From positions 62,001 through 126,000 of the forward strand of contig NC_050734.1 of the NCBI RefSeq assembly GCF_014133895.1: a stretch of DNA of 64,000 bases, in the 5' to 3' direction. Source of the DNA: Torulaspora globosa. Lineage: Eukaryota; Ascomycota; Saccharomycetes; Saccharomycetales; Saccharomycetaceae. The notes beneath the pieces were generated by a model. It did not search any database and was not told the origin of the DNA. It saw only the letters and a list, made by a program, of their open reading frames with translations. Position numbers and translations under genes: made by a program. Positions 55,152 through 57,268 of the stretch are shown piece by piece; positions within the stretch are counted from its first letter, which is position 1; the number at the start of each line of letters is the position of its first letter.

Positions 55152-56698
55152 ATGAGTGTTTATCCCTTCCAGCGTCTCAAATTAACATGGGTGCCAAAAC
55201 GCATAAAAATCTCATACTATGTTCTATGGAACGGGCGAGAATTTGGACCTCAGCCAATATCCAACGTATTGAAGCTTTATCAGATGCTAAAGAATGACGA
55301 TGATAAAATCCAGATGTGCTATTATCAGCCAGGCGTAGGTACCGAAGCAGATTTCGATCCAGTGGTTGATATTAGAAGGAAATTGACTAAATCGAGGGCT
55401 AACCGGAATGTTAAGCATGGCATGGAGAATATACGAGAAGTGGGAATTTTCTGAACAACCTTGTCAACCGCATTACTCCAGTACGCTGGCAGATGAATTC
55501 AAAAGAACCTTCTCTCGGAGCTATGAAGTTCGCATCCATTTTCAAGGTTTATGGGATTCTGTTAACTCGGTAGGTATTTTACGCAACAAGCTGTTTCCTT
55601 GTACGCAAAGAAGCGCGATAGCTGACCACGTAAGGCACGCAGTCTCTCTTGATGAAAGAAAGGGTAAATTCAAGCAGCAATTATTTGTTCCGTATCCCAT
55701 GTTGAACCAGCCCACCACTGACGTTCCAAATATTGACGCTGTGAATCAAGATGAGTTTGAAAGTAGAAACCGCTCAACTGACACGAGAACGGGTGTGAGC
55801 CCGGATTTGATCGAGAAATGGTTTCCCGGTGATCATTCAGATATTGGAGGCGGTTGGGGGCTGATTGCACAACCAGAGAAGATTTATCGAATTTTTCTAT
55901 GCGCTGGATGATTGCTGAAGCGTTTAAACTTGGAGTGTAGTTCAAACCTGGCTCAGTCACCTCTTTCGCTTCAAAGCATACTAATATAGGCTCGTTATTC
56001 TCGACAATGCATGACAAGCTTACTTTCAACCAAGGGATTAAAATACTGAAAGTCCAGATATTGCAACTAGCTCTCGGATAGCCTCTTCTGCCGTAAGCTG
56101 GTCTGGAAAGATGTTGGCTGATCTCCGTGAATGAGAGAGACAGAGACTTTAACTGAGCAAGAGGCTGCTCGAGAGCCTTATAGTGAAAAGTGCAAAGGCA
56201 TGAGCAAGTTCGAGACTTTCTTATGATGGGTCCTAGAGCTTATCCCCATAGGCCTAAGGATAGAAACCCAGGCAGGAAAATGGGAAAATGCTTATAAGCC
56301 CAACCTTGGCCGGCATAGATATGTGGCGCTCAATCGTGACCTGCATTGGTCAGTATTTTGGCGCATCAAGTATGATCAGAGGTATCGGCCCTCAAACGTA
56401 CCCAGCTATGCAAGAGAACTACTCAGAGAGTTCGAGGAGCTTGACTTGAAGACAGACCCGGTTACGAATATAAACACCAGAGCATTGCCCCTTGATCCCA
56501 CGGTAAACCGTGAGCGATATCAAGATGCCAGTGCAGTCGTTGCTACCTACAGAAGACCTAGCCATGATTGTCACTAAACAGAGCGCCGAGATTCGCTATC
56601 TAGCCATGAGGAAGCAGTTTGACCGCTGGGCGGCAACGTGTTGGCAAGAGTTTCCAGATGATCTTAGTGAATTGCTGCAGAAAAACCCTTATGTGTGA
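55152..56698 (+). pseudogene. Relic of a DUF2235 (Tle1-like alpha/beta hydrolase) gene, YEL023C family
   Basis: Fragments of one DUF2235 protein occur in order on the plus strand in changing frames. 55152-55420 holds an N-terminal part with NVLKLYQML and YYQPGVGTEADFDP. 55408-55905 holds AWRIYEKWEF, VHFxGL-type FQGLWDSVNSVG, DHVRHAVSLDERKGKF and WFPGDHSDIGGGW. A frame change near 55900 leads to RWMIAEAFKLGV. Later pieces (PNLGRHRYV, DLHWSVFWRIKYD, SYARELLREF) continue to about 56577 and a last piece to 56698. The block expected between TKSRANRNV and AWRIYEKW, which carries the nucleophile motif G-x-S-R-G-A, is missing. Several stops and frame changes show it is dead. Family members are predicted lipases or esterases, uncharacterised in yeast. 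Confidence 0.85.
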
Positions 56699-56845
56699 GT
56701 CGCATCTTCATTTTTGAATGTATGTGAATCAGAGGTTGAAAGTTTGATCAGAGACGAATGTAATAAATAGATTTATAGACAGAAGGATAACATGCTCGCG
56801 CTTCTCGTTCACTCAAAATTTAGCAATAAGTTCATTCATACTTGC

Positions 56846-57261
56846 TTAACCAACAATTAGTTTTGACTTACCACCTTCGAATTCATATTGTGGGATTTCC
56901 AGGTTCAATGGAGCTGGACCTTTTCTAATTCTACCAGAGATATCATAATGAGAACCGTGACAAGGGCAGAACCAACCACCGAAATCACCTGCCTCACTAA
57001 TAGGCACACAGCCCAGGTGGGTACAGATACCCAACATGATCAGCCATTCTGGTCTTTGACTCTGTCGAAGTCGGCTTGATGGTCATTTAGAGCAGACATG
57101 TCGACCTGGTTAGCCTCCTGAATTTCATGTGCAGCTCTGTGTCTAATGAACACCGGTTTACCTTGCCATTTGACAACGACGTCCTTGCCCTCTGGAATAG
57201 CAGGCAGTTTAATCTTGGCAGGCTTAGTGCATATCGGATTGTGAAAGTCATCTTTCAACAA
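56846..57261 (-). pseudogene. RIP1: Truncated, frameshifted copy of the Rieske iron-sulfur protein gene RIP1
   Basis: The minus strand encodes the C-terminal half of Rip1 (YEL024W family). 57261-57040 gives the block from AAIP-like residues through VVKWQGKPVFIRHR and EIQEANQVDMSAL to RVKD. A single-base loss near 57040-57050 then shifts the frame, and WLIMLGICTHLGC...CPCHGSH...RIRKGPAPLNLEIP to the LIVG stop (56846) follows. Both cluster-binding boxes are intact in sequence. The presequence, membrane anchor and hinge (about the first 95 residues) are absent: the homology stops about 8 bp from the tRNA-Gln gene. It faces the DUF2235 relic tail to tail, the arrangement of YEL024W and YEL023C in S. 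cerevisiae. A functional RIP1 is presumably elsewhere. Confidence 0.92.
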
Positions 57262-57268
57262 GTTATCA

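Follow-up and report, generated by a model that had tools for sequence, protein, structure and literature searches.

Gene content of the locus

The window, i.e. the whole stretch of 64,000 nucleotides that was analysed, comprises the bases 62001-126000 of contig C8 of Torulaspora globosa, and the genome searched consists of 8 contigs with 9281121 bases. Coordinates given without a contig name are those of the window. Two gene relics are located there tail to tail between an SCS7-type gene and a tRNA-Gln(CTG) gene, namely a pseudogene of a DUF2235 (YEL023C-like) gene on the plus strand (55191..56698) and a pseudogene of RIP1 on the minus strand (56845..57203). An earlier note on this DNA had described this arrangement, which is borne out by matches to PF09994 and PF00355 and by BLAST. 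The left neighbour (53737..54891, plus strand), which we take to be SCS7, is a 384-aa open reading frame with Cyt-b5 and FA_hydroxylase domains, and the tRNA gene to the right (57268..57342, plus strand) was predicted by ARAGORN. Both neighbours lie outside the copied DNA.

Further to the right (57418-63807) zf-C3HC, phosphoribosyltransferase, SRP19, RRN9 and PX/Nexin_C domains were detected. According to the gene names that we assume for this region (PML39, URA5, SEC65 and MDM1) and to the S. cerevisiae gene order, the right neighbours are presumably a mixture of S. cerevisiae YML and YMR genes, as is expected in a species without the whole-genome duplication; the place of the tRNA-Gln(CUG) gene on chromosome XIII is assumed on the same basis. 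A second tRNA-Gln(CTG) gene is present on the same chromosome (L016 1502-1574; G000:C8:889098-889189), so that the tRNA gene in the window is not the sole CTG one found. The six other relatives of this tRNA that were found have the anticodon TTG.

Extent and junctions of the copied segment

The duplicated segment as a whole (55019..57203, plus strand, ~2.2 kb) is collinear with a source segment of ~2.68 kb on another contig (C7:649181-651860; L010 5182-7861). It spans the DUF2235 gene in full together with nearly all of the spacer DNA that precedes it, continues through the convergent intergenic DNA and takes in the final ~119 codons of RIP1. In the alignment the upstream part (55019..55190, plus strand) shows 20 differences in 164 columns, and the convergent part between the two genes (56699..56844), which lacks 6 and 7 bp, shows 8 differences in 144 columns. 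The edges of the convergent part and of the aligned DUF2235 pseudogene are good to a few bases. The RIP1 pseudogene is restricted to codons ~99-217 and carries a single 1-bp frameshift near 57050.

By alignment, the left edge of the homology at 55019 corresponds to a position ~15 bp past the stop codon of an SNF2-type gene at the source. The start had previously been set at 55152; the homology begins at 55019 since the segment also covers source DNA that precedes the DUF2235 gene. Further to the left the homology does not continue (anchored score 0 compared to a mean of 5.2 for 400 random sequences). The 127-bp spacer that separates the segment from the SCS7-type gene (54892..55018) shows no homology to the source, its local score of 17 being matched or exceeded in 874 of 1000 shuffles, and presumably represents original intergenic DNA.

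Clear homology ends on the right at 57203 (57206 by BLAST), within RIP1 codon ~99 and ~65 bp before the tRNA gene, and not ~8 bp from it as had been supposed. A possible weak extension to ~57239 reached a score of 15, which was attained by 35 of 1500 random genomic 65-mers, and its local score was equalled by 28 of 1000 shuffles. Since clear homology stops at 57203 and the weak extension at ~57239, the alignment places the right end of the copy some 30-65 bp before the tRNA gene, and the break would thus have occurred near the tRNA gene rather than at the tRNA itself. A comparison of the window positions 53001-59500 with 30 kb of C7 around the source revealed nothing further in common.

The intact source locus

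A search of the genome with the DNA of positions 54900-57270 returned two places only, the query itself and C7:649181-651863. The similarity to C7 extends over three BLAST pieces of 86.8-93.9% identity (462-2058 bits), which excludes a chance similarity. The source locus comprises, in this order, a Pet191-domain gene, an SNF2-type (RAD26-like) gene, which we take to be RAD26, the DUF2235 gene and, on the other strand, RIP1, all of them with open reading frames. The DUF2235 gene (660 aa) and RIP1 (217 aa) are intact and encode full domain sets. RIP1 on C7 contains the UCR_TM and Rieske domains, and its residues 1-216 align with the Rieske chain 6giq_E (E 8.9e-117). Genome-wide, PF00355 matched twice, in RIP1 on C7 and in the relic (E 1.3e-7 for the latter), and PF09994 matched three times, once on C7 and in two pieces of the relic (E 3.2e-28 and 1.9e-7). 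No tRNA gene was detected within the 30 kb that surround the source.

The protein of the source locus on C7 is identical to P0001 (HG536_0G03710 of Torulaspora globosa). In a second T. globosa genome (HG537) both genes are numbered consecutively (0H03420 and 0H03430), and a RIP1 entry bearing the name of HG537 shows 100% identity with RIP1 on C7; as database entries of this kind are clustered, this identity likely holds in that strain. The search for a full-length RIP1 and an intact DUF2235 gene elsewhere in the genome, which the earlier note had proposed, thus found both together on C7 and collinear with the relic. The loss of RIP1, and with it of complex III, which had been considered in case no other copy existed, is rejected in view of the intact 217-aa RIP1 on C7.

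Decay of the copy

Of the 2181 aligned columns, 156 differ between the copy and its source, comprising 101 transitions and 55 transversions. The DUF2235 relic has nine indels, the copy being devoid of 1, 1, 185, 219, 1, 22, 1, 33 and 8 bp, and shows two in-frame stops in the register of the source. The RIP1 relic lacks codons 1 to ~98 and has lost one further base in a short G run, causing the frameshift. The remainder is well conserved, as noted previously, retaining both cluster motifs and the native stop. With an intact collinear source and disabling lesions in the copy, the two relics represent a pseudogene pair that arose by segmental duplication.

For DUF2235, 44 synonymous and 65 nonsynonymous differences were counted between copy and source in 496 codons (dS 0.152, dN 0.058), the neutral expectation for the nonsynonymous share being ~0.73. 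The corresponding values for RIP1 are 6 synonymous and 7 nonsynonymous differences in 117 codons (dS 0.083, dN 0.026). The differences are distributed unevenly over the three codon positions in DUF2235 (30, 27 and 56; p 0.001), and the unevenness in RIP1 (3, 3 and 7) is not significant. Such unevenness would be expected if selection continued to act on one of the two lineages.

The RIP1 and convergent part (56699-57203) differs from the source at 21 of 502 columns compared to 133 of 1676 in the rest of the segment (p 0.004). This lower divergence is not predicted by a simple uniform decay. Part of it may be due to constraint on RIP1 at the source; selection on the copied RIP1 seems unlikely since the gene would already have been cut when the copy arose.

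Of 13 candidates in a protein search with the open frame at 55408-55908 (167 aa), two proteins matched, namely the one from the window itself and a second with 35% identity. Since relic frames need not be predicted as proteins, this result is weak evidence on whether the relic occurs elsewhere.

Relative age and lineage of the copy

The age of the copy was inferred from 496 comparable DUF2235 residues of the copy, the C7 protein and the HG537 protein P0002, with P0003 and P0004 as outgroup. The identity amounts to 87.5% between the copy and C7, 83.1% between the copy and P0002 and 88.7% between C7 and P0002. The copy and C7 differ at 62 residues; 42 of these changes arose in the copy and 14 in C7 (p 0.0002), and 6 are undecided. 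At the 56 sites that differ between C7 and P0002 the copy agrees with C7 at 36 and with P0002 at 14, and has neither residue at 6. Where P0003 and P0004 agree, seven sites unite the copy with C7, one the copy with P0002 and one C7 with P0002.

In the tree the copy groups with C7 (support 98.3/100), and the two other placements received p values of 0.00499 and 0.00548 in the AU test and of ~0.02 in the KH and SH tests. The branch lengths are 0.112 for the copy, 0.034 for C7 and 0.049 for their common stem. According to the tree the copy is therefore younger than the split between HG536 and HG537 and evolves about three times faster than the source gene. The excess of changes in the copy (42 compared to 14) and its longer branch (0.112 compared to 0.034) indicate that constraint is relaxed in the copy. 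The previous view that the copy may be fairly recent holds insofar as it is younger than the HG537 split, but is to be taken in a relative sense, given a dS of 0.15 in DUF2235 and 14 residue changes in C7 since the copying.

Origin of the duplicated segment

We propose that a DNA fragment of C7 was inserted near the tRNA gene in the HG536 lineage after the split from HG537 and decayed thereafter, and we assign a probability of about 0.92 to this segmental duplication. It rests on the observed homology and collinearity, the intact source, the lesions of the copy and its placement in the tree. According to this proposal a DNA copy of ~2.68 kb of C7, from just past the RAD26-type gene to RIP1 codon ~99, would have been placed in the intergenic space that separates the SCS7-type gene from the tRNA-Gln(CTG) gene on C8. 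At its birth the copy would have contained a complete DUF2235 gene with nearly all of its upstream DNA and a RIP1 that was already cut. Substitutions, small indels and two larger deletions would then have accumulated in the copy, and the originals on C7 would have stayed open. DNA-mediated copying instead of copying via mRNA is evident since intergenic DNA and genes on both strands are contained in one piece.

The simplest route would be the capture of the copied fragment during the repair of a break, and the tRNA gene may have made the landing site prone to breakage. The segmental duplication followed by decay that the earlier note had suggested agrees with the intact collinear pair on C7, but its breakpoint at the tRNA gene has to be moved to a position near this gene, ~30-65 bp away. 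As no tRNA gene was detected within 30 kb of DNA surrounding the source, the role of the tRNA gene at the landing site is to be read as an association, and there is no support for a recombination between one tRNA gene at the source and another at the target. A point against the proposed route is the advanced decay of the junctions, which obscures how the ends were joined. Gene gain beside tRNA genes has been described for 33 of 96 sites on the S. cerevisiae lineage (PMC2675101), and the landing place fits this published association.

An introgression of the segment from another Torulaspora lineage, rather than from the strain's own C7, appears very unlikely. The divergence of 7% and the HG537 residues at 14 of the 56 sites would be compatible with it, but the copy shares the C7 residue at 36 of these sites, the outgroup-polarised sites are distributed 7 to 1 to 1, the AU test rejects the alternative placements, and the 14 HG537-like sites fit changes in C7 after the copying. 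An HG537-like lineage as giver is thus disfavoured by the tree test, but an unsampled close relative of the HG536 strain could have been the giver. There is similarly little probability that the copying preceded the divergence of both T. globosa genomes and that the second genome lost the copy or that it escaped notice there. An old copy of this kind could look young as a result of gene conversion from C7, but the tree test argues against this placement (AU p 0.00548), and the permutation tests do not provide convincing signs of conversion: the longest identical run of 91 columns was reached in 735 of 5000 permutations, the longest third-position run in 2482 of 5000 and the clustering in 100-column windows in 226 of 5000. 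We also regard it as unlikely that the copied DUF2235 gene once worked as a second gene before it broke and that the relic later exchanged sequence with C7 by gene conversion. If true, such a conversion would explain why the RIP1 part, which was cut from its start, is better kept than the rest.

The mobile elements of the WHO10 type were considered because in T. globosa WHO10 carries 3' fragments of host genes, and such elements are described as active in this species (PMC7282813). The segment resembles their insertions in being inserted DNA with a 3' gene fragment in the same species. In addition, the left spacer shares a 12-bp exact match (54937-54948) with each of the homing-endonuclease loci L025-L028 (E 0.63 each), and another 12-bp match connects the right flank of the tRNA gene with L027 and L028 (E 0.36), both being at chance level. 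On the other hand, the homing-endonuclease domain PF05203 matched 14 times in the genome, with 16 candidates scored, and never on C8, although a badly decayed remnant could escape detection; its two matches on C7 are located near 160 kb, at a great distance from the source at 649 kb. Furthermore, all five insertions described in PMC7282813 carry an FBA1 fragment downstream of WHO10; here no FBA1 fragment was detected since the search with the segment (54900-57270) hit no third locus, and again a badly decayed fragment could escape. A remnant of a WHO10-type insertion is therefore hardly probable. Full matches to PF05203 were found in three open frames (614, 622 and 625 aa) at C1:1517663-1519186, C2:709686-711185 and C3:226805-228301; these may correspond to the WHO10 genes, three in number, that were described as intact in CBS764, which besides CBS2947 is one of the T. 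globosa strains named in that study (PMC7282813). HG536 is most likely CBS764, and HG537 would be CBS2947, since the name prefixes are ordered like the BioProject numbers. Processed pseudogenes formed by reverse transcription are extremely improbable. The site adjoins a tRNA gene, a position that yeast retroelements are generally known, and stated in PMC2675101, to favour, but both intergenic regions and the genes of opposite strands were copied as one collinear piece, an anatomy that rules out a copy of one mature transcript. An assembly artefact is just as implausible: the RIP1 frameshift concerns one base in a short G run, yet read errors cannot account for 156 substitutions together with deletions as large as 185 and 219 bp relative to the source, and the published T. 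globosa assemblies are based on PacBio and Illumina reads (PMC7282813).

Relation to known systems

The segmental duplication on C8 closely resembles the duplicated-segment pseudogenes of Hemiascomycetes (Lafontaine and Dujon 2010, PMC2876123), which likewise are copies of adjacent genes located off the conserved synteny, inactivated and with intact paralogs elsewhere. These pseudogenes are described as species- or strain-specific, and in Z. rouxii 41 of 71 pseudogenes from species-specific duplications are located in duplicated segments (PMC2876123, Table 5). Nothing essential differs from the present case, in which source, extent and order of events are resolved. The gene-gain sites by tRNA genes (Gordon et al. 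2009, PMC2675101) are alike in having new DNA beside a tRNA gene within a conserved order, whereas on C8 a decaying copy instead of a new gene is found at a distance of 30-65 bp from the tRNA gene. Fragments of nuclear DNA at yeast double-strand breaks (PMC10802722, preprint) also represent chromosomal DNA copied to an unrelated site; however, these are new events at an induced break, whereas here the junctions are old and the mechanism is a proposed one. The WHO10 insertions of T. globosa (PMC7282813) share with the C8 segment the species and the presence of ectopic 3' gene fragments in inserted DNA, but in the present case no WHO gene was detected on the chromosome and no fragment of a third locus was detected. 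The main text of that study contains neither "RIP1" nor "tRNA" (0 occurrences each).

Relics of duplicated genes are commonplace in yeasts, and cases like the copy on C8 are well known. The relic pair thus asks for no new mechanism, and no loss of complex III is implied since an intact RIP1 is present in the genome. As a case in which source, lesions and relative age are well resolved, it extends what is known of duplicated segments in yeasts that come to lie near tRNA genes.
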